Positions 36,275 to 50,422 of a DNA stretch of 64,000 bases are shown in pieces; position 1 is the stretch's first letter; each line of letters begins with the position of its first letter. The stretch comes from Actinomycetes bacterium (lineage in GTDB: Bacteria > Actinomycetota > Thermoleophilia > UBA2241): positions 66,737 to 130,736 of the forward strand of contig JAKPOQ010000004.1 in NCBI GenBank assembly GCA_029547745.1, read 5' to 3'. Below the pieces are notes generated by a model. That model searched no databases. It worked only from the letters and a program-made list of their open reading frames with translations, and was not told the DNA's origin. The position numbers and the translations under genes are program-made.

Positions 36275-36778
36275 TTGGACCTGCCTGAGCTCACCTGGGA
36301 GGGTTACGTGACCCCGTACGGGATCGGCCTGCTGGCTCGGGCCGACGACCTGCCGCTGTGCCTCGAGTTGCCGGCGGCAGGCCGTCGGCCGATCCCGTCG
36401 CCGGCAGGGGCGAGCGCCTGGCGATCACGCCTGGAGCGGTACTTCGCGGGGCAGCCGGTCGATTTCGAGCTCGACCTCGGCGCTTTCGCCGCCGCCTGGC
36501 GGCTGACACCGTTCCAGACGGCCGTGTACGCAGCCCTCGCCCGTCTGCCTTACGGTGTGGCGGTGAGCTATCGGGACCTCGCGACTGCAGCCGGCCGCCC
36601 TCGCGCCTGGCGAGCCGTCGGCACGGCCCTGGCGGCGAATCCGCTGCCCATAATCCTCCCCTGTCACCGGGTGGTGCGGAACGACGGTCGGCTGGGTGAG
36701 TACGGCGGCCGGCCTGAGTGGAAGGCCCGCCTGCTGCGCCTCGAGGGCCTGACTGTCGGCGACGGGAGGCTGTCTTGA
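36275..36778 (+). CDS. ogt: methylated-DNA--protein-cysteine methyltransferase family protein
   Basis: TPFQTAVYAALARLPYGVAVSYRDLATAAGRPRAWRAVGTALAANPLPIILPCHRVVRNDGRLGEYGG (PCHRV active site); start codon uncertain (TTG 36275 or GTG 36308). Confidence 0.85.
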   Translation: MDLPELTWEGYVTPYGIGLLARADDLPLCLELPAAGRRPIPSPAGASAWRSRLERYFAGQPVDFELDLGAFAAAWRLTPFQTAVYAALARLPYGVAVSYRDLATAAGRPRAWRAVGTALAANPLPIILPCHRVVRNDGRLGEYGGRPEWKARLLRLEGLTVGDGRLS

Positions 36779-36786
36779 ACGGAGCC

Positions 36787-37647
36787 ATGCAGTTCGTGAT
36801 CATCACCGGCCTCTCGGGCGCGGGCAAGTCCCAGGCCATCGACTCGTTCGAGGACGCCGGCTATTTCTGCGTCGACAACCTTCCGCCCGAGCTGGTGCCG
36901 ACGCTCGTCGACCTCTTCCGTCGCGAGGGCAGCAAGGTAGACCGTGTGGCCATCGTCAGCGACGTGCGCGGCGGCGAGTACTTCGGTCGTCTGGAGCATG
37001 TGCTCGACGAGCTTCACGAGCGCGGCGTCGAGCACACCATCGTCTTCCTCGAAGCCTCGAACGAAGCTCTCGTACGGCGCTTCAAGGAGACACGGCGAAG
37101 GCATCCGGCCGCCGAGGGCGGCAGAGTGATCGACGGCATCCGCCGCGAGCGTCGGCTGCTGGCGCCGCTGCGCGAACGCGCCACCCTCGTGATCGACACG
37201 AGCGACATCTCGATCCACGAGCTCAAGGCGCGGCTCAACCGGGACATCATCCAGCACTCGCGGCGCACCAACATCGTCTTCGCCGTCGTGTCGTTCGGGT
37301 ACAAGTACGGCATCCCCATAGATGCGGACCTGCTCTTCGACGTGCGCTTCCTGCCCAACCCTCACTACCGACTGCGCCTGCGACCGCTGACAGGCCTGGA
37401 CGACGAGGTGCGCGAGTTCGTCATGCGCTCGCCGGAGACATCCGAGTACCTTGAGCGACTGTTCGGTCTGCTCGACTTCCTGTTCCCGCGTTACGCGGCC
37501 GAGGGCAAGGCGCACCTGACCATCGGCGTCGGGTGCACGGGGGGTCGTCACCGCTCGGTGACCGTCGCCCAGCTCATCGGCGAGCGCTACGAGAAGCAGG
37601 GCTACTACACCATCGTACGGCACCGCGACATCGCCAGGGACGCGTGA
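36787..37647 (+). CDS. rapZ: RapZ-family nucleotide-binding protein
   Basis: MQFVIITGLSGAGKSQAIDSFEDAGYFCVDNLPPELVPTLVDL; conserved rapZ-yvcK-whiA synteny. Confidence 0.94.
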   Translation: MQFVIITGLSGAGKSQAIDSFEDAGYFCVDNLPPELVPTLVDLFRREGSKVDRVAIVSDVRGGEYFGRLEHVLDELHERGVEHTIVFLEASNEALVRRFKETRRRHPAAEGGRVIDGIRRERRLLAPLRERATLVIDTSDISIHELKARLNRDIIQHSRRTNIVFAVVSFGYKYGIPIDADLLFDVRFLPNPHYRLRLRPLTGLDDEVREFVMRSPETSEYLERLFGLLDFLFPRYAAEGKAHLTIGVGCTGGRHRSVTVAQLIGERYEKQGYYTIVRHRDIARDA

Positions 37648-37681
37648 ACGGCGCTGTCGCCGCCACCGCACCAGAGGCCCG

Positions 37682-38932
37682 ATGACGTTCCGTCACGTTG
37701 ACTGGCTATATCCCGGGATCGGCCTCAAGCGGTGGCTGGCGCTGGCCACCGGTGGCGGCCTGGCGCTCGTCTATTCGCTCGCCGTCCTGGCCGGCGTGGC
37801 GTGGTCGGACGATCTGATGCGTGGACTCGGCTGGGGCGCCATGACCGACCGCCGCCTGGCCGCCGCGGTGCTGGCCCTCGACGGCGTCGTCGTGGGGACG
37901 GCCGCGCTGGCCGTCGGGGCGCGCCGCGTCTGGCTCTGGCGGCGCACGAACCCAGAGACGGCGAGCGAGATCCGCGCCAGTACGAGGCTCGCCCGCGGTC
38001 CCCGCATCGCCGCCGTGGGCGGCGGCAACGGCCTCGCAGCGCTCCTGTCCGGTCTCAAGGCCCGGACCAGCAACATCACCGCCGTCGTGACGATGGCCGA
38101 CGACGGCGGCAGCTCCGGGCGCCTGCGGCGCGACATGGGGTTGCCGCCGCCCGGCGACATCCGCAACTGCCTCGTCGCCCTGGCCGACGACGAGTCGCTC
38201 ATGTCACGGCTGTTCCAGTATCGCTTCGCCGACGGCGGCCTCGAAGGCCACAGCTTCGGCAACCTGTTCGTCGCCGCGCTCGCCGAGGTGACGGGCGACT
38301 TCGAGCGCGCCGTGCAGGAGTCGACCCGGGTGCTCAAGGTCCGCGGCCGCGTCTTGCCCTCGACCCTGGACGACGTCGTGCTGCATGCGCAACTCGAGGA
38401 CGGCGGCCTGGTCAGCGGCGAGAGTACGATCACGGCGTGCGACCGCCTTCCGCGCCGCGTCTGGCTGACGCCCGAGGAGCCGCATGCCCTGCCCCAGGCG
38501 GTCGATGCCGTGCTGCGCGCCGACATGGTCGTCCTTGGCCCTGGGAGTCTCTACACGAGCGTCGTGCCGAACGTCCTCATCCCGGTCGTCCGCGATGCGC
38601 TCGCGCGCACGCGGGGCTGGGTCGTGTACGTATGCAACGTGATGACCGAACCTGGTGAGACCGACGGTTACACGGCCGGCGACCACCTCGAGGCGCTCTA
38701 TCGTCACGGCCTCGCCGGCATGGTCGACATCGTGATGGTCAACGACGGTCCGGTGACGGGGGACTCGGCGGCGGCCTACGAGCGCGCCGGGGCCACCCCC
38801 GTCGCCGTCGACGAGGAGCGCCTCGCGACGATGGGTGTGCGCGTCGTGCGCGGGGACTTCGCCCAGATGGGGCAGGCGGTGCGTCACGACCCCGTGCGGC
38901 TCAGCGACGCCCTCCTCCGGATCCTGCGCTAG
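37682..38932 (+). CDS. yvcK: YvcK/CofD-like protein (gluconeogenesis factor) with N-terminal TM segments
   Basis: RIAAVGGGNGLAALLSGLKARTSNITAVVTMADDGGSSGRLRRDMGLPPPGDIRNCLVAL. Confidence 0.92.
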   Translation: MTFRHVDWLYPGIGLKRWLALATGGGLALVYSLAVLAGVAWSDDLMRGLGWGAMTDRRLAAAVLALDGVVVGTAALAVGARRVWLWRRTNPETASEIRASTRLARGPRIAAVGGGNGLAALLSGLKARTSNITAVVTMADDGGSSGRLRRDMGLPPPGDIRNCLVALADDESLMSRLFQYRFADGGLEGHSFGNLFVAALAEVTGDFERAVQESTRVLKVRGRVLPSTLDDVVLHAQLEDGGLVSGESTITACDRLPRRVWLTPEEPHALPQAVDAVLRADMVVLGPGSLYTSVVPNVLIPVVRDALARTRGWVVYVCNVMTEPGETDGYTAGDHLEALYRHGLAGMVDIVMVNDGPVTGDSAAAYERAGATPVAVDEERLATMGVRVVRGDFAQMGQAVRHDPVRLSDALLRILR

Positions 38933-38939
38933 ACGGGAC

Positions 38940-39866
38940 GTGGCCTTCAGCCGGGACGTGAAGCGCGAACTGGCGGCGATCGTGCCGTCGGAGGGGCACT
39001 GTCGGCGCGCCCAGCTCTCGGGCCTGCTGTTCGGCGCCGGCACCTTCTCGATGGGCGCTGGCGGCCGCATCGCGGTGCGCGTCACGGTCTCTCTGCCGGC
39101 CGTCGCTCGCAACGCTCTCGCCTTGCTCAGGCCGTACGAGGCCGAGGCTGAGTTGCGCACGGTGAGCTCGTCGCCCGGCGGCCGCCGCTACGAGGTCGTG
39201 CTCGGCGGCGAGCCGGACCTCCAGCTCCTGAACGAGGCCGGCGTGCTTTCCGACGCGATGCAGCTTCACCTGGCGGCGCCGGGGCGGATCGTCGAGCGCC
39301 GCTGCTGCGTCGTCGCCTTTGTGCGCGGCCTCTTCCAGGGCTGCGGCACGCTGTCGTCGCCGGGGGCCCCCGTCCATGTCGAGTTCACCCTGGCCGGCGA
39401 GGAGCTGGCGGCGCAGACGCAGACCCTGCTCGCCCGTGTCGGTCTCGACTTCAGGCTGGCGCGCAGGGGACGGAACGTCGCCTGCTACAGCAAGCGCTCG
39501 GACACCGCCGCCGACCTTCTCGCCGTGCTCGGCGCGCATGATGCCCGCTTGCGCTGGGAGGAGCAGGCGGTGGTGGGTGAGATGCGCGGCCGTGCGAACC
39601 GGCTGGCGAACTGCGACGAGGCCAACGCGCGCCGCGCGGCGGCGGCCGGCGAACGCCAGGCCGCCGCCGCGCGGCGCCTGAGGGCCTCGTCCGTCTGGGA
39701 GACCATGCCGGCCGCGCTGCGGCAGGCGGCGGACCTGCGCCTCGAGCACCCCTACCTGAGTCTCGGCGAGCTCGCCGCCGCCGCCGACCCGCCGTTGAGC
39801 AGGTCGGCCCTGAACCGTCGCCTTCGCCGCGTCGTGGAGCTCGGCGAGGCCGTCGCCCCGCCCTGA
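38940..39866 (+). CDS. whiA: WhiA-family DNA-binding protein
   Basis: MAFSRDVKRELAAIVPSEGHCRRAQLSGLLFGAG; C-terminal NRLANCDEANARRAAAAGERQ...LRLEHPYLSLGELA; synteny. Confidence 0.93.
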   Translation: MAFSRDVKRELAAIVPSEGHCRRAQLSGLLFGAGTFSMGAGGRIAVRVTVSLPAVARNALALLRPYEAEAELRTVSSSPGGRRYEVVLGGEPDLQLLNEAGVLSDAMQLHLAAPGRIVERRCCVVAFVRGLFQGCGTLSSPGAPVHVEFTLAGEELAAQTQTLLARVGLDFRLARRGRNVACYSKRSDTAADLLAVLGAHDARLRWEEQAVVGEMRGRANRLANCDEANARRAAAAGERQAAAARRLRASSVWETMPAALRQAADLRLEHPYLSLGELAAAADPPLSRSALNRRLRRVVELGEAVAPP

Positions 39867-40002: not shown

Positions 40003-41232
40003 TCACATGCTCCTGGCGACGTGCGTGGTCAGCTCGCCCAGGCGGTGCGTGTAGCTTCCCATCTCGTTGTCGTACCAGCCGAAGATCTTGACGTGCGTGA
40101 GCGGGATGCGGACCGTGTCGCCCTTGGCGCCGCTGGCGCAGGCCGACGGGAGGGTGAGGTCCATGAACCCCGTCCGCGAATGCGTCTCGGCGGCCTCGAT
40201 CACCACGGCGGCGTCCTCGGCGAGCATGTCGGCGGAAACGTTCTGCTCCTCCGTGTACTTGAGCAGGCCCTTGGCCTCGCCCTCCGCCGCCTCCCTGTAG
40301 ATGGCGTTGACGGCGTCACGGCCGAGCGTGACCGTGCCATCCGGCAGGGCCTCGCTCTGGAAAGTGACGTTGAGGATGATGAGGCTGACGGTGTTCGTCG
40401 GGATACGCACCGAATCGGCCATGAAGCCGATGCGGGCGATCTCGGGCATGACGAGCTCGAGGGCCGCGGCGGCGTTGGTCGAGGTCAGGATGACGTTGCC
40501 CATGGCGCCGCGACTCTTGCGCAGGTCGGTGGCGCCGGCCTTGGGTACCGCGTCGAGCACCGGCTGCGATGGGGTCACGGCGTGGACGGTGCTCATGCCC
40601 GCCGTGATCATGCGTCGCGTCGGCTCGCGCTCGAGGAGCGGCCGCATCATGTGGGCCAGCGCCGTCGTCGTGCAGGACGCGGCCGACACCAGCTTGTGTC
40701 GCGCCGGGTCGAAGTCGAACTCGTTGATGCCGTTGATGAAGAGGCCGGCGTCGTCGGGCAGGGGAGCGCCCTTCTTGGCCTTGAAGGCCGAGCTGTTCAG
40801 GACGACCCGCGCGCCGGCGGCGAGATGGCCGCGGATCGACCCTTTGGGGTCGTCGGCCTCCGCGTGCGGGTCGCGGAACTTGCCCGTGCAGTCCACGACC
40901 ACCGCGACCTCCTGCTCGCGCCAGGCGATGTCCTTCGGGTCGCGCGCCTCGCGCAGGATGACGAGCTCCTTGCCGTAGGCCGTGATGAGGCCGCCCTCCT
41001 CGTCGACCACGCGGACGTCCGGCCTGCCGGATTGGCCGTAGAGGAAACGGTGCAGGGCGCCGTAGGTCGAGTCCTTGGCGATGTACTGGGCGAGCGCGTC
41101 GAGGGACGTGCCCACCTGACGACCGACGTTGATCACGATGCGGTCGAAGTCGTCGTGTCCGAGGTGATGCCACAGCGTCAGCTTGCCGATGCGGCCGAGC
41201 CCGTTGATGCCGAGTGTCCGTTGCCCACCCAT
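40003..41232 (-). CDS. divergent glyceraldehyde-3-phosphate dehydrogenase-like protein (409 aa)
   Basis: LGINGLGRIGKLTLW; catalytic SAASCTTTALAH (Cys kept); STVHAVTPSQPVLD (His kept); GWYDNEMGSYTHRLGEL; insertions relative to canonical gap at 45823. Confidence 0.82.
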   Translation of the reverse strand: MGGQRTLGINGLGRIGKLTLWHHLGHDDFDRIVINVGRQVGTSLDALAQYIAKDSTYGALHRFLYGQSGRPDVRVVDEEGGLITAYGKELVILREARDPKDIAWREQEVAVVVDCTGKFRDPHAEADDPKGSIRGHLAAGARVVLNSSAFKAKKGAPLPDDAGLFINGINEFDFDPARHKLVSAASCTTTALAHMMRPLLEREPTRRMITAGMSTVHAVTPSQPVLDAVPKAGATDLRKSRGAMGNVILTSTNAAAALELVMPEIARIGFMADSVRIPTNTVSLIILNVTFQSEALPDGTVTLGRDAVNAIYREAAEGEAKGLLKYTEEQNVSADMLAEDAAVVIEAAETHSRTGFMDLTLPSACASGAKGDTVRIPLTHVKIFGWYDNEMGSYTHRLGELTTHVARSM

Positions 41233-41289: not shown

Positions 41290-41327
41290 GGTCCGCGTCG
41301 CCGGCTGTGCAGCCGGCGACGCGGACC
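41290..41327. repeat. 38-nt perfect inverted repeat in the divergent promoter region
   Basis: GGTCCGCGTCGCCGGCT gtgc AGCCGGCGACGCGGACC. Confidence 0.7.
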
Positions 41328-41434: not shown

Positions 41435-44400
41435 GTGAGGACATCACAGCTGCCTTTCGAGTCCGACGCCCTGCGCGCCAACATCGCCACCACGGCGCAG
41501 GAGGTGGTGATCCCCGAGCGCTATGCGCCGCTCGTGGAGGCCGTCGCCGGCCTGCACGGTGTGCGCGCGACGCTCGTCGACACTCTGAGCGAGTACTTCC
41601 ACGGCTTCCGCAACGTCGATCTGCTGGTCGACGGGTTCCAGACCATCGTCCTTCGCAACTGGCCCTACTTCGAGCGCTCGCCGGACCGTGCTCTGCTCTT
41701 CGGCCTGCTCGGCGAGCTCATGGTGCAGCTCCTCGACGAGGACCTGACGGAGGAGCAGGCGTCGCCCCTGCTGCGCGCCCTGCTGCTCTGGGCGACGGAA
41801 GCGCTGAAGGGGAGCCACGGCGAGGCCTACGAAGAGACGCTGCGCGGCCTGGCCCCGGACCTGTCGCGATTGCTCGACCGGTACCGGCGGTCCTTCCTCG
41901 AGCGGGACGTCCTTGTACGCAACCTTGTCGAGCAGGCCGTGCCACGGGCCGCCCTGGCGGCCCCGTTCCTCGAGCTGTATCGGAAGGTCCTCGTCGCCGC
42001 CTACGGCGTCGTCCGTGACCGCCTCGACGTTCCCGGCTGGGTCGACACCCAGGGCGGAGGGCTCACCGACCCGGGCGCCGTGGCCCGGCGGTTCTCATGG
42101 CTCGCGCGGCGGCGCACGACCGACCTCGTCCGCGCCGCCGAACGGGCTCCGGCGGAGACCCTGCTCTCGCCCCGGTTCCCCCTGTTCTCCGAGATCGCGC
42201 AACGGGCGATCGACGAGCTTTTCCACATCGAGAACCTGGAGGACCGGTTCGCGGTATGCCTCTTCTTCCTCAAGGACCAGACTCTCGGCTACCGCCAGAA
42301 GGAGGTCATGGCCGACCTCCTCGACGTCGTGCGGCAGTTGATGCGCCCCGACCGGCACACCGACGCCGAGACCATCCTCACGCGCCTCACGGCTTTCTTC
42401 CGTGGTCGCGAGGACGAGTTCCTCCTCGCGCGGTTCCAGTGTTACGAGGCCATCGGCGTGGCCATCGGCGAGGCGGGCAACGTGCGCGCCGCCGACCACC
42501 TCATCGAGGACATCCTGTACTGGCAGTTCCAATACCCGGACATCCGCGGCGCGACCGACGAGTGGGAGACCGTGGTCAACCCCTACCACCTGCCGAAGAT
42601 CCGCTGCTGGATGCACATCATCGAATCGAACCCGGCGCTCTTCGAGCGGCTCGCCGCGGCGCTCAACGTCCAGCTCCGCCTCGGCGGCGTCTACATCGCC
42701 GACACCGACCTCTTCCAGCGCGACGTGACCCGCTTCCTCAACGCGGACATCAGGCCGATCTACTTCGTCGCCAAGCAGCTCCTGCGGGCGTTCCCGGTGT
42801 ACTTCAGCGAGGTGGGCGCCGAGGGCGAGCTGCGTTCCGTCTCGACCGAGATCGACGAGGTCTGCGGGCGCCACGACTCGCTCATGCACTTCCTGCGCAA
42901 ACAGGTGCACGCCGAGTCGTCGAACCGGCTCGTCGCGTTCAGTCGCGCCGTCCTCGTGTACTGGCTCAGCCTCGACCCGTCGGGGCTCGAGCCGTTCGTC
43001 TCGGAGAGCACGATGGCTGCCGTGCGCCGCGAGCTCGACTGGGCGCGCGGCCCGCACGCCACGCTGCACGCCCTGCGGCGACGGCTCATGCCGCGCATCG
43101 GCGTCGCCGACGGCGGTCGCCCCGACGACGGCGGTCGCTCCGACGGCGGCGGGCGGGGGGACGGGGCGGGGCGCGGCGGCCACCGCGCCCGGGCGCGCGC
43201 GGACGCGGAGCAGGAGGTCGACGCGTTCCTCGACCGGCTCCTTGCGCTGACGCCGGACGAGCTCGCCGCCGAGCTGTCGCAGATAGGGGACGGGCAGGGC
43301 GACGACGGCGGCGCGATCGACGACGTCCAGCGCCGCCGCGTCGCCCTGCTCGTGCGTACATACCAGCTCCTCGCCCGCAAGTACTCCTTCACGGCCGACG
43401 ACGTCGGTCCCGCGGTGGCTCGTCACACTCAGCTCGAGGCGAAGGTGCGCGAGCGCTTCGCCGACGCGCTCGCGGCCTGGCAGAGGCGCCCGACGGCCTA
43501 CGCGCGGGACAGGCTGCTCGACGCCGCGCTCTCCGTCCTCGAGGCGCTCAAGGCCATCATCTTGAGCGCCGAGGTCTCGACCCCGACCGAGAACATCTAC
43601 CAGAAGCGCCACATCGCCGCCGGCATCCCGTCGATCTACGGGAACTACAGCGAGCCCAAGTTCGACGCCCTTGGCCTCTCGTTTCGCGTCGAGAACCTGG
43701 CCGGGCGCCTGCTCGAGGACCTTGTCGCCGAGGGCGTCGAACAGTACGTGACGCGCGACTCGCTGCGGCGCATGAGCCGGGCGATCCGGCGCTTCGAACG
43801 TGCGCTGGCCGTCGACGGCGTCGACTCGCGCGCCCTCGACGCCAACCTGAGCATGCTCGAGGCGAGCTTCGCGAGTCGCAACTTCACCTTCCACCAGTAC
43901 CAGAACGTCTTCCAGTTCCTCGCCCAGAGCGTCACCGAGCTCTCCACGCGGTCGGTGCTCAGCCACGAGCAGGTCCTGCACGCCGTGCTCGTCAACGACC
44001 CCCGGCAGTGCGAGGCGCGGGGCATGTCGGTCGACGCCGTCGCCGAGATGGTCCTGCGCGAGGTGCTGGTGTCGGCGCTCGGCATGCAGACGCTCGACCG
44101 CTACGTCGGGGCGGCCTTGCGCCAGATCTCGATGCTCAACGGACGGCTTGACAACCGCGCCCTGACGCGCATGATGAACTACGACCCCGAACGTCTGATG
44201 TCGCCGCTGCACCGCCCCCGGCCGGCGACCGACGATCAGCGCACGCTGGGCTTCAAGGGACTGGGCCTCAAGCAGATGGCGGCCTACGGCCATCGCGTCC
44301 CCGAGGGGTTCGTCGTCACCACGGAGCTCTTCCAGGCGATGCCGGCGATGTCGTACGCGCCGCTCTACGACGAGACCATCGAGCGCATCCGTCACGCCGT

Positions 44401-45733
44401 GAGCGCGCTCGAGCGGCGGACGAAGCGGCGTCTCGGTGATGCGCGGCGCCCGCTGTTGCTCTCCGTCCGGTCGGGCGCCGCCATCTCGATGCCCGGCCTC
44501 ATGGCGACCTTCGTCAACGCCGGTCTCAACGACGTCCTCACCGAGGCTCTCGCCCGCGCCCCCGGGTTCGCGTGGGCGGCGTGGGACAGCTACCGGCGTC
44601 TGCTGCAGTCGTGGGCGATGTCGGACGGCCTCGAGCGCGATTTCTTCGACGCGATCATGACCGAGTTCAAGGCGCGCTACGGGGTCGAGCAGAAGCTCGA
44701 CTTCAGCGCCGCGCAGATGCGCGAGATCGCCATCCAGTACAAGGCGCGCGCCCTTGACCTCGGGGTACGTTTCGTCGACGACCCGTGGGAGCAGGTCGTC
44801 GTCTGCGTCCGCAAGGTGCTCGATTCCTGGGGATCGCCACAGGCGCGGCTGTATCGCCAGTACGTGGGCATCGCCGAGGAGTGGGGTACCGCGGTGGTCG
44901 TCCAGCGGATGGTGTTCGGGAACCTGAACCGGCAGTCGGGCTCGGGGGTGACCTTCACGAGCAACCCGCTCGAGCCGCACAGCCGGCAGGTGCGTCTCTT
45001 CGGCGACTTCGCCGTACAGAGTCAGGGCGAGGACCTCGTCGGCGGTCTCGTGTTCCCCTTGCCGATCTCAGAGGCGCAACGTCTCGGGAGTCCCGCGTAC
45101 CGGGGCACGGAGCACTCGCTCGAACGCGACTACCCAGCGATCTACGCCGAGCTGCTGGCCGTGGCCCGCGACCTCGTGGAGTACCGGGAGTTCGACCCCC
45201 AGGAGATCGAGTTCACCTTCGAGTCGCCGGCGGCCCACGACCTCTACGTGCTGCAGAAGCGGGCCGTGGTGCAGGGACAGGACATGGACGCCCCTTACTT
45301 CGACACGTCGTCACCGAGCTACGGCCCGCCGGTGGCCGTAGGCATGGGGGTGTCGGGCGGCGCCTACTCGGGGCGCGCCGCTGTCGATGCCGGGCAGATC
45401 GACCGCCTGCTCAAAGAGGCTCCTGACGAGGGCATCGTGCTCCTGCGCCCCGACACCGTCCCGGAAGACATCGCCATGATCACCAGGGTCGACGGCATCC
45501 TGACGGCGCGTGGCGGCGCGACGTCCCATGCCGCGGTGACCGCCAAGCGTCTGGGCAAGACGGCGGTCGTCGAGTGCGCCGACCTCGAAGTCGTCGAGCA
45601 CGAGGGCATCGTCCGCTTGGCGGGGCACGAGCTGCATGCCGGCGACTGGTTGTCGATCGACGGCCGGACCGGCAACATCTTCCTCGGCCGCATCCCGACG
45701 CAGAGCCGGCCGCCGGCGACGAAGGGTCGGTGA
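41435..45733 (+). CDS. giant PPDK-like protein: unassigned ~900-aa N-terminal region + PPDK-type ATP-grasp + phosphohistidine swivel domain, no PEP/pyruvate barrel
   Basis: TLGFKGLGLKQMAAYGHRVPEGFVVTTEL; LSVRSGAAISMPGLMATFVNAGLND; SGSGVTFTSNPLEPHSRQVRLFGDFAVQSQGEDLVGG; EIEFTFE...LYVLQKR; ILTARGGATSHAAVTAKRLGKTAVVE; ends about 60 aa after the His motif. GTG start at 41435. Confidence 0.8.
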   Translation: MRTSQLPFESDALRANIATTAQEVVIPERYAPLVEAVAGLHGVRATLVDTLSEYFHGFRNVDLLVDGFQTIVLRNWPYFERSPDRALLFGLLGELMVQLLDEDLTEEQASPLLRALLLWATEALKGSHGEAYEETLRGLAPDLSRLLDRYRRSFLERDVLVRNLVEQAVPRAALAAPFLELYRKVLVAAYGVVRDRLDVPGWVDTQGGGLTDPGAVARRFSWLARRRTTDLVRAAERAPAETLLSPRFPLFSEIAQRAIDELFHIENLEDRFAVCLFFLKDQTLGYRQKEVMADLLDVVRQLMRPDRHTDAETILTRLTAFFRGREDEFLLARFQCYEAIGVAIGEAGNVRAADHLIEDILYWQFQYPDIRGATDEWETVVNPYHLPKIRCWMHIIESNPALFERLAAALNVQLRLGGVYIADTDLFQRDVTRFLNADIRPIYFVAKQLLRAFPVYFSEVGAEGELRSVSTEIDEVCGRHDSLMHFLRKQVHAESSNRLVAFSRAVLVYWLSLDPSGLEPFVSESTMAAVRRELDWARGPHATLHALRRRLMPRIGVADGGRPDDGGRSDGGGRGDGAGRGGHRARARADAEQEVDAFLDRLLALTPDELAAELSQIGDGQGDDGGAIDDVQRRRVALLVRTYQLLARKYSFTADDVGPAVARHTQLEAKVRERFADALAAWQRRPTAYARDRLLDAALSVLEALKAIILSAEVSTPTENIYQKRHIAAGIPSIYGNYSEPKFDALGLSFRVENLAGRLLEDLVAEGVEQYVTRDSLRRMSRAIRRFERALAVDGVDSRALDANLSMLEASFASRNFTFHQYQNVFQFLAQSVTELSTRSVLSHEQVLHAVLVNDPRQCEARGMSVDAVAEMVLREVLVSALGMQTLDRYVGAALRQISMLNGRLDNRALTRMMNYDPERLMSPLHRPRPATDDQRTLGFKGLGLKQMAAYGHRVPEGFVVTTELFQAMPAMSYAPLYDETIERIRHAVSALERRTKRRLGDARRPLLLSVRSGAAISMPGLMATFVNAGLNDVLTEALARAPGFAWAAWDSYRRLLQSWAMSDGLERDFFDAIMTEFKARYGVEQKLDFSAAQMREIAIQYKARALDLGVRFVDDPWEQVVVCVRKVLDSWGSPQARLYRQYVGIAEEWGTAVVVQRMVFGNLNRQSGSGVTFTSNPLEPHSRQVRLFGDFAVQSQGEDLVGGLVFPLPISEAQRLGSPAYRGTEHSLERDYPAIYAELLAVARDLVEYREFDPQEIEFTFESPAAHDLYVLQKRAVVQGQDMDAPYFDTSSPSYGPPVAVGMGVSGGAYSGRAAVDAGQIDRLLKEAPDEGIVLLRPDTVPEDIAMITRVDGILTARGGATSHAAVTAKRLGKTAVVECADLEVVEHEGIVRLAGHELHAGDWLSIDGRTGNIFLGRIPTQSRPPATKGR

Positions 45734-45792: not shown

Positions 45793-46821
<1,029 letters not shown>

Positions 46822-46899
46822 GGGACGGGCGTGCGGCGCCGCTCTCATGCCGCCAGGACGCCGCAGGCAACGGACATCACGATCGAGGGAGGCCGCCCC

Positions 46900-48084
46900 G
46901 TGCGCAAGCGTTCAGTGACCGACTACCCGCTCGCCGGCAAGCGCGTGCTCGTGCGGGTCGACTTCAACGTACCGCTCGAGGGCGGTCGCGTGGCCGACGA
47001 CACACGCATCCGCGCCGCGCTGCCGACCATCGAGTACCTGCTCGGCCAGCGGTGCGCCGTCGTCCTCGCCTCGCACCTCGGCCGCCCCAAGGGCAAGGTC
47101 GTCGAAGAGCTGCGCATGGCGCCGGTCGCGGCGCGGCTCGCGGAGCTGCTCGGGCGGCCCGTGAAGACGGCGAGGGACTGTGTGGGACCGGAGGTCGAGG
47201 CCGCAGCCCGCGCCCTCGCTCCGGGCGAGGTCCTGCTGCTCGAGAACCTGCGTTTCCATGCCGGGGAGACGGCGAACGACCCGGCGTTCGCAGCGCAGCT
47301 CGCCGCCCTGGCGGACGTCTACGTCAACGACGCCTTCGGCGCCGCCCACCGGGCGCACGCCTCGACCGAGGGTGTCGCCCACCTGCTCCCGGCGGTCGCC
47401 GGGCTGTTGCTGACGCGTGAGCTCGAGATGCTCGGCAAGCTGCTGACCGACCCCCAGCGGCCGTTCGTCGTCGTGCTCGGCGGCGCCAAGGTCTCGGACA
47501 AGATCGGCGTCATCGAGAGGATGCTCGACACGGCCGACGCGGTCCTCGTCGGCGGCGCCATGTGTTTCGCCTTCTTCAAGGCGGACGGGCGCGAGGTGGG
47601 CACGTCCCTGGTCGACGAGGAGGGGCTTGACGCCGCGGCGGCGATCGCCGCCAAGGCGCAGCGCGAAGACCGCGTGTTCGAGCTGCCCGTCGACATCGTC
47701 GTCGCTCCGGCCGCCGAGGCCGGCGCGCCGAGCACGGTCGTGGCGGCCGACGCCATGCCGGTCGACCAGATGGGGCTGGACATCGGGCCGGCGACGGCGG
47801 CGGCGTTCGCCGCCCGCATCGCCGGCGCCCGGACGGTCTTCTGGAACGGCCCCATGGGGCTCTTTGAGATCGAGGACTTCGCTGCGGGAACGCGGACCGT
47901 CGGCGAGGCGGTCGCCGCCGGGGACGCCGTCTCGGTGGTCGGCGGCGGCGACACGGTGCGGGCCGTCCGGCGCTTCGGGTTGGAGGGTCGCATCACGCAC
48001 GTGTCGACCGGCGGCGGGGCCGCTCTGGAGTTCCTCGAGGGCAAGGCGCTGCCCGGCGTCGTCGTCCTGATGGACCGGGAGTGA
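46900..48084 (+). CDS. pgk: phosphoglycerate kinase
   Basis: GKRVLVRVDFNVPLEGG; SHLGRPKGK; VVVLGGAKVSDKIGVIE; GGGDTVRA. Confidence 0.96.
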   Translation: MRKRSVTDYPLAGKRVLVRVDFNVPLEGGRVADDTRIRAALPTIEYLLGQRCAVVLASHLGRPKGKVVEELRMAPVAARLAELLGRPVKTARDCVGPEVEAAARALAPGEVLLLENLRFHAGETANDPAFAAQLAALADVYVNDAFGAAHRAHASTEGVAHLLPAVAGLLLTRELEMLGKLLTDPQRPFVVVLGGAKVSDKIGVIERMLDTADAVLVGGAMCFAFFKADGREVGTSLVDEEGLDAAAAIAAKAQREDRVFELPVDIVVAPAAEAGAPSTVVAADAMPVDQMGLDIGPATAAAFAARIAGARTVFWNGPMGLFEIEDFAAGTRTVGEAVAAGDAVSVVGGGDTVRAVRRFGLEGRITHVSTGGGAALEFLEGKALPGVVVLMDRE

Positions 48085-48854
48085 CGGTGGCTCCCGAGCG
48101 CCGCCCGCTCATCGCGGGCAACTGGAAGATGTACAAGACGCGGCCCGAGACGGCGGCCTTCTGCGCCGCGTTCCTGCCCCTTGTGGCCGGCGTCGAGGGC
48201 CGCGACGTGGTGCTCTGCCCGCCGGCGGTGTGCCTCGAGACGGCCCTCGCCGCGACGCGCGGCGCCGGGGTCGGCGTCGGCGCCCAGACCATGCACTTCG
48301 CCGCCGAGGGCGCCTACACCGGCGAGATCGCGCCGCGCATGCTGGCCGAGCTCGGCGTCTCGCATGTGATCCTCGGCCACTCGGAGCGGCGGCAGTACTT
48401 CGCCGAGAACGACGCCGACCTCGCGCGCAAGGTCCGCGCGGCGCTCGATGCGGGGTTCACCCCGATCCTGTGCTGCGGCGAGACGCTTGAAGAGCGTGAG
48501 GCGGGGCGGACCGAAGCCAAGGTCGGCGGGCAGCTCGACGCCGACCTCGCCGAGGTCGACCCAGCAGAGCTGCCCGCCGTGACCGTCGCCTATGAGCCGA
48601 TCTGGGCGATCGGCACGGGTAGGACGGCGACCCCCGAGACGGCGCAAGAGACGGTGGCGTTCATCCGGCGGCGCCTGCGCGAGCGCTTCGGCGCCGCCGC
48701 CGACCGGGTGCGCATCCTGTACGGCGGCAGCGTCAAGGCGGCGAACATCGATGCCCTCATGGTGCAGCCCGACATCGACGGCGTGCTCGTCGGCGGGGCG
48801 AGCCTCGAGGCGCAGGAGTTCGCGCGCATCGTGCGCTTCGTGGAGCCCGCGTGA
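48081..48854 (+). CDS. tpiA: triosephosphate isomerase
   Basis: RRPLIAGNWKMYKT; ILGHSERRQYF; VAYEPIWAIGTGRTATPE; overlaps pgk stop. Confidence 0.96.
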   Translation: MTVAPERRPLIAGNWKMYKTRPETAAFCAAFLPLVAGVEGRDVVLCPPAVCLETALAATRGAGVGVGAQTMHFAAEGAYTGEIAPRMLAELGVSHVILGHSERRQYFAENDADLARKVRAALDAGFTPILCCGETLEEREAGRTEAKVGGQLDADLAEVDPAELPAVTVAYEPIWAIGTGRTATPETAQETVAFIRRRLRERFGAAADRVRILYGGSVKAANIDALMVQPDIDGVLVGGASLEAQEFARIVRFVEPA

Positions 48855-50422
48855 GCGGCGCACGCGGGGCGTCGCTCTCGCCGACAGGACGGATCTTCCG
48901 CCCCGTCGTCCTCGTGGTGATGGACGGGTGGGGCTACGCGCCGGCCGGCCCCGGCAATGCCGTCGCCCTGGCGCGCACGCCCGTGTTCGACGCGCTCTGG
49001 GGGGCGTACCCTCACACGACGCTCGCAGCGTCCGGTGAGGCGGTCGGTCTGCCTCCGGGCCAGATGGGCAACTCCGAGGTCGGGCACCTCAACATCGGCG
49101 CCGGACGCGTGGTCTACCAGGACCTCACCCGCATCACGAAGGCGATCGAGGACGGCTCGTTCTTCAGGAACCGCGTCCTTGTACAGGCGATGGCGAAGGC
49201 CGCCGGCCGCGCCTCCAGGCTCCACCTCATGGGCCTGGTGTCGGACGGCGGCGTGCACAGCGACCTCGGCCACCTCGAGGCCTGTCTCGAGCTCGCCCGT
49301 CGCGAGGGTGTCCGGGACGTCGTCGTCCACGCCTTCCTCGACGGTCGCGACACGCCGCCGAAGAGCGCCCCGGGGTACCTGGCCCGGGTCCAGAAGACGA
49401 TGGACCGGCTCGGCGTCGGCCGCTACGGTGTGGTCAGCGGCCGTTACTACGCCATGGACCGCGACGGGCGCTGGGAGCGCACCAAGCTCGTGTACGACGC
49501 CCTCGTCTACGGCGATGGTCTCTTCGCCGCCGATGCCCAGGCCGCGGTGCGGGCGGCCTACGAGCGCGGCGAGACGGACGAGTTCGTGCGCCCGACCGTG
49601 GTCGCCCCCGAGGTCGAGGCGCGCGTGCGTGCGGGCGACGTCTGCCTGTTCTTCAACTTCCGGCCCGACCGCGCCCGCCAGCTCACGCGCGCCTTCTTCG
49701 AGAGGGAGTTCGACGGCTTCGACCGGGGTCCGACCCCGCCGGCGGTCGACTTCGTGACGATGACGCGTTACAAGAAGGAGTTCCCGCTGCCGGTGGCCTT
49801 CGAGCCGGAGCACCTGACGAACGTCCTGGCCGAGGTCCTTTCCGCCGCCGGCCTGCGTCAGCTCCACATCGCCGAGACCGAGAAGTACGCTCATGTGACG
49901 TTCTTCTTCAACGGCGGCGTCGAGGCCGAGTACCCCGGGGAGTCACGGATCCTTGTCCCCAGTCCGCGCGACGTGCCGACGTACGACAAGAAGCCCGAGA
50001 TGAGCGCCTTCGCCGTCACCGACGCGCTCGTGCACCGGCTCGGCGCCGGCGTCTGCGACTTCGTCGTCGTGAACTTCGCCAACGCCGATATGGTGGGGCA
50101 CAGCGGCGTCATCCCCGCCACCGTCAAGGCGGTCGAGACGGTCGACGCCTGCGTCGGCAGGGTTGTCGACGCCGTCGCCGCCCTCGGCGGCGCCTGTCTC
50201 GTGACCGCCGACCATGGCAACGCCGAGGAGATGCTGCAACCCGACGGGAGTCCGAACACCGCCCACAGTACGAACCCTGTGCCGTTTCTGGCCACGGCGA
50301 CCGGCGTGAAGAGCTGCGACGGCGGGCGGCTGTGCGACCTCGCGCCGACCATCCTCGGGCTGCTCGGTGTCGCGCCGCCCGCCGAGATGACCGGTACGCC
50401 GCTGCTCGAGCCCGTGGCATGA
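48851..50422 (+). CDS. gpmI: 2,3-bisphosphoglycerate-independent phosphoglycerate mutase
   Basis: VVLVVMDGWGYAPAGPGNAVALARTPVFDALW; GQMGNSEVGHLNIGAGRVVYQDLTRI; HAFLDGRDTPPKSA; VTADHGNAEEM. Confidence 0.95.
   Translation: MSGARGASLSPTGRIFRPVVLVVMDGWGYAPAGPGNAVALARTPVFDALWGAYPHTTLAASGEAVGLPPGQMGNSEVGHLNIGAGRVVYQDLTRITKAIEDGSFFRNRVLVQAMAKAAGRASRLHLMGLVSDGGVHSDLGHLEACLELARREGVRDVVVHAFLDGRDTPPKSAPGYLARVQKTMDRLGVGRYGVVSGRYYAMDRDGRWERTKLVYDALVYGDGLFAADAQAAVRAAYERGETDEFVRPTVVAPEVEARVRAGDVCLFFNFRPDRARQLTRAFFEREFDGFDRGPTPPAVDFVTMTRYKKEFPLPVAFEPEHLTNVLAEVLSAAGLRQLHIAETEKYAHVTFFFNGGVEAEYPGESRILVPSPRDVPTYDKKPEMSAFAVTDALVHRLGAGVCDFVVVNFANADMVGHSGVIPATVKAVETVDACVGRVVDAVAALGGACLVTADHGNAEEMLQPDGSPNTAHSTNPVPFLATATGVKSCDGGRLCDLAPTILGLLGVAPPAEMTGTPLLEPVA

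Follow-up and report, generated by a model that had tools for sequence, protein, structure and literature searches.

The window analysed here, a 64,000-nucleotide stretch of an Actinomycetes bacterium genome, contains an open reading frame of 1,432 aa (41435-45733, +, GTG start, TGA stop) whose product, judging from its sequence and predicted structure, may be a phosphotransferase of the dikinase type that serves specifically the GAPDH step, a reading which we prefer and rate at somewhat less than an even chance. The giant PPDK-like frame described in an earlier note was confirmed, and its GTG start is backed by relatives with similar N-termini (V/M-RT-x-PF-D/E-SDALRAN in L021, L026 and L031). 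As 48 N-terminal positions are invariant across 61 full-length relatives, the frame is not a chance one. What is new relative to the known barrel-less PPDKs is the N-terminal domain and the link to GAPDH: in the open-access literature searched, nothing relevant turned up on a GAPDH-linked protein resembling PPDK or on a phosphoglycerate dikinase, and the N-terminal domain was not found there either.

The C-terminal part (residues 936-1432) resembles PPDK (TIGR01828; 1kbl) in having an ATP-grasp followed by a phosphohistidine domain with the same catalytic residues. The PPDK-type ATP-grasp nucleotide-binding region covers residues ~937-1322 (44243..45400, +) according to phmmer, Foldseek and the conserved catalytic residues, and the phosphohistidine (swivel) domain with the catalytic His1365 extends from there to the protein end (45401..45730, +). 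The only Pfam families matched by the whole protein are PPDK_N, with E 8.6e-24 for its best stretch at residues 983-1208, and PEP-utilizers, with E 3.4e-18 at residues 1331-1413. The phmmer comparison with PPDK structures gave E ~1e-75, and the modelled residues 936-1432 matched PPDK 1kbl in Foldseek with E 3.5e-34 and an rmsd of 3.0 Å, the identity in the structural alignment being about 32%. All the motifs quoted in the earlier note were found, among them TARGGATSHAAV, whose His at residue 1365 is the catalytic one, and its claim of an intact phosphotransfer module holds, since all the catalytic residues checked are kept with one D-to-E change. The window protein has the PPDK positions K22, R92, E279, D280, E323, Q335 and R337; D321 is changed to E in it and in all relatives. 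Apart from D321, every ATP and His catalytic position checked is kept by 59-61 of the 61 relatives, and this includes the acids and arginines at the triphosphate/phosphate site. The PPDK TSH motif (T453, H455) is also present, with H1365 found in 61/61 relatives and T1363 in 60/61. The ATP and His half thus appears intact, as far as sequence and model can tell.

Unlike PPDK, the protein lacks the PEP/pyruvate TIM barrel, as had been noticed before: neither Pfam nor NCBIfam detected one, the protein ends ~67 aa past His1365, and a barrel is lacking in every relative read full-length. It further differs from PPDK in possessing 936 new N-terminal residues, in scoring far under the family cut-off (348.7 bits vs 843.45 for TIGR01828, which is matched over its N-terminal half only) and in belonging to a separate clade. 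The architecture was confirmed in 378 stretches of the genome contig collection representing about eight phyla, and in the NBD+His tree these proteins form a single clade apart from PPDK with a support of 100/100. The five stand-alone truncated PPDKs other than VadK (Rv1127c) that were sampled for the same tree, from Rhodococcus, Streptomyces, Azospirillum, Methylocella and Aquabacterium, lie outside this clade.

The N-terminal region (residues 1-936; 41435..44242, +) is all-alpha and has conserved blocks at ~385-494 and 719-751, as seen from the AlphaFold2 model and the alignment of relatives. It was proposed earlier to be a new module, and this is borne out by its conservation among relatives and by the failure of both sequence and fold comparisons to place it in a known family. 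Residues 1-936 of the window protein match nothing in Pfam or NCBIfam and no PDB sequence, and no Pfam family was matched by the N-terminal regions of 10 diverse relatives. The AlphaFold2 model (pLDDT 88.4, pTM 0.83) is all-helical and solenoid-like, and Foldseek found nothing in PDB and BFVD at E<=0.001. Homology to known families is ruled out within the sensitivity of Pfam (window protein and 10 relatives), a PDB profile search and Foldseek on PDB and BFVD, and the DUF47/PhoU-like protein that partners other truncated PPDKs shows no homology to the region either. The 48 invariant positions are shared by about 61-62 relatives with an overall identity of about 27-30%, and ten of the invariant residues in the two blocks are basic: H385, R467, R479, R488, K489, H492, K724, R725, H726 and R751. 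Three of them belong to an invariant mobile loop (residues 723-735, QKRHIAAGIPSIY; 43601..43639, +), in which K724, R725, H726, A728, I731, P732 and S733 do not vary and pLDDT is below 50 in both models. Docking of this loop onto the ATP/His module was considered and found unsupported, its pLDDT staying below 50. In G382 the N-terminal domain appears to be split, with two overlapping reading frames that look like a frameshift, and this split was excluded from use.

The survey of homologue neighbourhoods suggested earlier revealed a link which the earlier note had not seen. A GAPDH gene was present in 74 of the 84 fetched loci, within 0.6 kb in 68, and GAPDH was the sole neighbour conserved over all lineages, the linkage recurring in several phyla with differing gene orders and strands. 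Altogether the association with GAPDH extends to at least eight bacterial phyla. In the window, the dikinase-like gene stands first in a dikinase-gap-pgk-tpi-gpmI cluster. It is followed after an 89-bp gap by a canonical NAD-type GAPDH gene (45823..46821, +; TIGR01534 448.5 bits, over the cut-off), then by pgk for phosphoglycerate kinase (PGK; 46885..48084, +, start approximate; PGK part of NF010569 554.9 bits, PF00162), tpi for triose-phosphate isomerase (48081..48854, +; TIGR00419 above cut-off) and gpmI for cofactor-independent phosphoglycerate mutase (48851..50422, +; TIGR01307 above cut-off). Divergently upstream, at a distance of 202 bp, lies a gene coding for GAPDH2, a 409-aa divergent paralogue of type I GAPDH (40003..41232, -). 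A palindrome located between these two divergent genes was not found in four relatives.

An orthologue of GAPDH2 adjoins the dikinase-like gene in most relatives. The gene next to it in most Bacteroidales codes for a canonical GAPDH, whose identity to GAPDH2 is only about a third. GAPDH2 scores below the TIGR01534 cut-off of 367.2 (278.7 bits in the window, 327.3 in L055), is ~70 residues longer than canonical type I GAPDH with an identity of only about a third, and lacks the NAD-specific Asp, having 'NxGRxxG' in place of 'xINDL'. Like type I GAPDH, it retains both catalytic residues (Cys and His) as well as the phosphate-site Arg of the SVRIPT motif (SCTTT, HA.T..Q and SVRiPt are conserved in 38 aligned GAPDH2 sequences). 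G345 and G382 have no other GAPDH, so GAPDH2 does a real GAPDH job. Of 298 Actinomycetota genomes, the 5 that have GAPDH2 are also the 5 that have the dikinase-like protein (Fisher p 5e-11; phylogeny ignored), and among 198 Desulfobacterota genomes GAPDH2 is present in 50 of the 51 carriers of the dikinase-like protein, with 1 and 3 exceptions (p 5e-42; phylogeny ignored), 12 of the 50 pairs not being neighbours.

Taken in this setting, the dikinase-like protein would bind ATP with its PPDK-type ATP-grasp and transfer a phosphoryl group to His1365, releasing AMP together with PPi (or Pi), after which the swivel domain would carry the phosphoryl to an acceptor held in the N-terminal helical module. 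This reading draws on the kept PPDK catalytic positions and the match of residues 936-1432 to 1kbl, on GAPDH being the only neighbour conserved over lineages, on the co-occurrence of GAPDH2 with the protein even when unlinked and on the real GAPDH job of GAPDH2. The ten invariant basic residues are what one would expect where a ligand with several negative charges binds, and a small-molecule acceptor is favoured because nearly all characterised dikinases (PPDK, PEP synthase, RPH, GWD, PpsAB/HpeHI) phosphorylate small molecules (general knowledge; PMC12167813, PMC4844700). On this reading the acceptor would be a small metabolite of the GAPDH node, with 3-phosphoglycerate/1,3-bisphosphoglycerate as the first candidate; the other candidate acceptor would be GAPDH itself. 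If the first candidate is correct, the protein would be to phosphoglycerate kinase what PPDK is to pyruvate kinase, either driving formation of the 1,3-bisphosphoglycerate used by GAPDH2 or the adjacent GAPDH or, in reverse, drawing ATP from 1,3-bisphosphoglycerate. Such a phosphoglycerate dikinase with a dedicated GAPDH isoform and a new kind of acceptor domain in at least eight phyla is rather unlikely; if real, it would add a hitherto unknown enzyme to central carbon metabolism. PGK was found in 24 of the 25 genome entries checked, so the protein is rejected as a stand-in for an absent PGK, and no pathway gap demands a second 1,3-bisphosphoglycerate enzyme, which counts against the dikinase reading. 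Solenoid-like helical folds bind proteins more often than metabolites, which also counts against it. Being all-alpha and solenoid-like, the modelled N-terminal module is equally compatible with acceptor binding and with the role of a protein-binding scaffold, and if the protein is paired almost strictly with a single GAPDH subfamily in two phyla, a protein partner explains this no less well than a metabolite in common.

A protein partner is what would be expected of a regulator resembling VadK (Rv1127c), an NBD+His protein without a barrel published in 2025-26, which autophosphorylates on His422, modulates the methylcitrate cycle and interacts with enzymes of the pathway encoded near it (PMC13400623). 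VadK bears on the earlier suggestion that the window protein is undescribed, which stands for the N-terminal module and fails for the barrel-less PPDK module, VadK being a precedent (PMC13400623). Further stand-alone NBD+His proteins exist besides VadK. The dikinase-like protein shares with VadK the NBD+His arrangement, central carbon enzymes encoded nearby and, by its sequence, probable ATP-dependent His autophosphorylation. It does not fit the VadK type in size, since truncated PPDKs of that type have about 500-570 aa and no further large domain (VadK is ~50 kDa), whereas the 936-aa module is conserved in all its relatives; it scores 267 vs a cut-off of 456 with NF004531 (PRK05878, VadK/Rv1127c-type), and its genetic partner is GAPDH instead of methylcitrate enzymes. 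In a VadK-like scheme the His1365-phosphorylated form would use the helical N-terminal scaffold to bind or phosphorylate GAPDH2 (or the GAPDH encoded next to it), and ATP/AMP/PPi status would thereby set which way the GAPDH step runs or how active it is. We rate this scheme only slightly below the preferred reading. The solenoid-like model, the near-strict GAPDH pairing including unlinked cases and the invariant loop, of low confidence in both models as if folding on an external partner, speak for it. However, 48 invariant positions at such low overall identity resemble an enzyme site more than a protein interface, the canonical GAPDH neighbour in most Bacteroidales makes a single conserved interface less likely, and the mechanism of VadK itself is backed only by pull-downs and low-confidence complex predictions (PMC13400623). 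A phosphorylation-based regulator of central carbon flux, as proposed before, is possible, and the GAPDH link adds weight to it.

Lower glycolysis passes for fully mapped, and a large ATP-using phosphotransferase genetically bound to GAPDH over many phyla would point either to an unrecognised reaction or to an equally unrecognised phosphohistidine switch at this step. The barrel-less PPDKs, so far represented by VadK, would gain a second, much wider branch with a specific, testable partner, and the dikinase superfamily a new acceptor or effector module.

Known dikinases act on varied acceptors, and the putative acceptor module matches no known family, so the acceptor could also be an unrelated glycan, lipid or cofactor, the protein being tied to gap genes by operon history only. 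We regard this as improbable, since operon history hardly explains a GAPDH linkage that spans several phyla with varied gene orders and strands or the co-occurrence with GAPDH2 when unlinked. The combination of ATP-grasp, swivel His and a candidate acceptor module is shared with rifampin phosphotransferase (RPH), HpeHI and PpsAB. In RPH, too, the domain for the acceptor consists mostly of helices; the RPH order (ATP, acceptor, His) differs, and no similarity of residues 1-936 to RPH was detectable by sequence or Foldseek. Glucan and phosphoglucan water dikinases have the ATP to His to acceptor logic in common with the protein, possess starch-binding domains and carry the His domain before the ATP domain. 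Here Pfam found no starch-binding domains and placed the His domain after the ATP domain, in agreement with the difference in order noted earlier.

That the protein is an ordinary PPDK in two pieces, with the barrel supplied by another polypeptide, is very improbable: two-component dikinases such as PpsAB and HpeHI are known (PMC12167813), but no barrel gene occurs among the conserved neighbours, the 930-aa N-terminal module conserved in every relative would still need a role, and the same genome encodes elsewhere a separate canonical PPDK, which by its ATP-grasp and His region falls among the canonical PPDKs.

The ORF at window positions 41435-45733 (+) is real and codes for a 1,432-aa protein, the C-terminal third of which consists of a PPDK-type ATP-grasp followed by a phosphohistidine domain (Pfam PPDK_N and PEP-utilizers), as the earlier note had proposed. 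Residues 931-1432 match PPDK chains with an E-value of about 1e-75, and the chain stops about 67 residues past the catalytic His1365 and lacks a PEP/pyruvate barrel, also as proposed. The equivalents of PPDK K22, R92, R135, E279, D280, E323, Q335, R337, T453 and H455 are conserved in 59-61 of the 61 full-length relatives, and D321 is replaced by E in all 61; the functions of the aligned positions (K22 to H455) we take to be those established for the Clostridium symbiosum PPDK. In a model of residues 578-1432 the C-terminal part recovers the PPDK fold (PDB 1kbl, E 3.5e-34, rmsd 3.0 Å), and the rest has no structural match. Conservation and the predicted structure both indicate that the ATP-to-His phosphotransfer half is intact.

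Residues 1-936 belong to no Pfam family, and the same holds for 10 diverse relatives; a profile built from 62 sequences found no natural homologue among known structures. The AlphaFold2 model of the region (62 sequences) is confident and all-helical (pLDDT 88.4, pTM 0.83), and Foldseek returned no matches for it at E<=0.001, the top matches being HEAT-type solenoids with TM of only 0.11-0.19. The suggestion that the N-terminus falls in no recognised family is borne out by all these searches. Across 62 relatives 48 of its positions are invariant, including a block at about 385-494 (D423, T424, Q428, G461, E463, G464, R467, T471, D474, R479, D481, R488, K489, Q490, H492, E494) and another at about 719-751 (E719, K724, R725, H726, A728, I731, P732, S733, G736, Y738, E740, F743, G747, R751). 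Loop 723-735 of the second block is invariant, yet both models give it a pLDDT below 50, suggesting that it becomes ordered upon binding a ligand or partner. Alignment and model describe a new, predicted helical module rich in invariant positions.

A single scan of genome_contigs, using the N-terminal alignment as pattern, gave 378 confirmed stretches, from which 78 loci were retained, labelled in their records as Actinomycetota (mainly Thermoleophilia), Desulfobacterota/Thermodesulfobacteriota, Bacteroidota, Chlorobiota, Acidobacteriota, Fermentibacterota, Planctomycetota and Bacillota. Intact relatives share the layout and are about 1,360-1,440 aa long. The gene in the single-contig genome G382 (locus L142:2933-7100) is broken into two overlapping reading frames, probably by a frameshift. 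A maximum-likelihood phylogeny of the ATP+His module unites the family in a single clade (100/100) that excludes the whole comparison set, which comprised six canonical PPDKs and five truncated stand-alone ones; the latter five split into two groups. The window genome also encodes a separate PPDK, which groups with the canonical ones.

The protein differs from PPDK in barrel, family score and clade. The earlier note's suggestion of an undescribed dikinase stands in part: a barrel-less PPDK was already known, namely VadK (Rv1127c), which phosphorylates itself at His422 and has methylcitrate-cycle enzymes as interaction partners (PMC13400623), but no description of the present protein was found in the open-access literature searched. 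It differs from VadK-type proteins in size and in carrying the additional module. Other acceptor modules occur in the small-molecule dikinases RPH (PMC4844700), HpeHI and PpsAB (PMC12167813), and the N-terminal module shows no homology to the RPH and GWD acceptor domains. We class the protein as a dikinase partnered with GAPDH and equipped with a new module, either acceptor or effector. Separately, stand-alone barrel-less PPDK modules of 526-539 aa on plasmids of Methylocella tundrae (L134:3053-6521) and Aquabacterium olei (L140:1963-5530) are immediately preceded by a 631-648 aa DUF47 / "phosphate transport regulator" gene, apparently a further undescribed case in which an NBD+His protein is paired with a helical one.

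The neighbourhood survey of homologs found a GAPDH gene within the stretch in 74 of 84 fetched loci (<=0.6 kb away in 68), counts which are descriptive because the set holds near-duplicates and is skewed toward best matches. Of the 10 loci without one, seven or eight are stretches truncated by the end of a contig; L050 clearly departs from the rule, and L062 probably does. Apart from GAPDH, clustering of all neighbouring ORFs found no gene family conserved across lineages. The neighbour can be GAPDH2, a divergent type I subfamily, usually immediately downstream on the same strand, and divergent and upstream in the window (40003..41232, -) and its nearest relatives. Canonical GAPDH lies head-to-head in Bacteroidales and upstream in several Desulfobacterota, and some loci, including the window, have both. 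Between the divergent genes the window carries a perfect 18-bp inverted repeat with a 2-bp centre (41290-41327, GGTCCGCGTCGCCGGCTG/CAGCCGGCGACGCGGACC), found in the equivalent interval of none of four relatives.

The N-terminal module and GAPDH2 were detected in the identical five of 298 Actinomycetota genomes, and among 198 Desulfobacterota genomes in 51 and 53, respectively, with 50 sharing both (Fisher p = 5e-11 and 5e-42, both ignoring phylogeny); in two of the three GAPDH2-only genomes the GAPDH2 match is only partial. Among 247 Bacteroidota genomes the seed genome was the only one in which the module was detected, and none gave a match to GAPDH2, the latter an empty result without a positive control; Bacteroidales carriers with a canonical GAPDH neighbour have no GAPDH2. 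By gene order and co-occurrence the dikinase-like gene is genetically coupled to GAPDH.

GAPDH2 is longer than canonical GAPDH (identity about 33%) and retains the catalytic Cys, His and the Arg of SVRiPT. It has NxGRxxG in place of the NAD-specific Asp motif, which suggests a possible preference for NADP(H). In genomes G345 and G382 it is the sole GAPDH.

We infer that the dikinase-like protein works on the GAPDH step. Our tentative first choice is that the N-terminal module would hold a small-molecule acceptor from the GAPDH node, the natural candidate being 3-phosphoglycerate/1,3-bisphosphoglycerate, in which case the protein would be a counterpart of PGK, as PPDK is of pyruvate kinase. In favour of this reading are ten invariant basic residues and the superfamily's record; against it speak the solenoid-like fold and the occurrence of PGK itself, which 24 of the 25 genome entries examined contain. 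Slightly less probable, though a serious possibility, is that the protein regulates GAPDH in the manner of VadK, as it pairs with one GAPDH subfamily even when the genes are unlinked: 38 of the 50 Desulfobacterota pairs are linked within 6 kb, the other 12 are not, and in G331 the two genes are 2.4 Mb apart, with GAPDH2 in a GAPDH2-pgk-tpi cluster. Such a role fits less well with the deep invariance of the N-terminal module and with the change of partner to canonical GAPDH in Bacteroidales.

The window's assembly (G000) has two further PGK genes adjoining weakly matching GAPDH genes (C78:17210-19042 and C154:9578-11392), possibly MAG contamination or divergent additional copies. About 11 Bacteroidales loci have a lepA-like gene on the downstream side of the dikinase-like one (e.g. 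L080:7245-9074). Directly upstream of the GAPDH/dikinase region in the window lies rapZ-yvcK-whiA (36718-39866); rapZ likewise occurs in the vicinity of family members at some loci from Desulfobacterota (L049, L054-L056 and L085), and its association with the family may be wider than the window.
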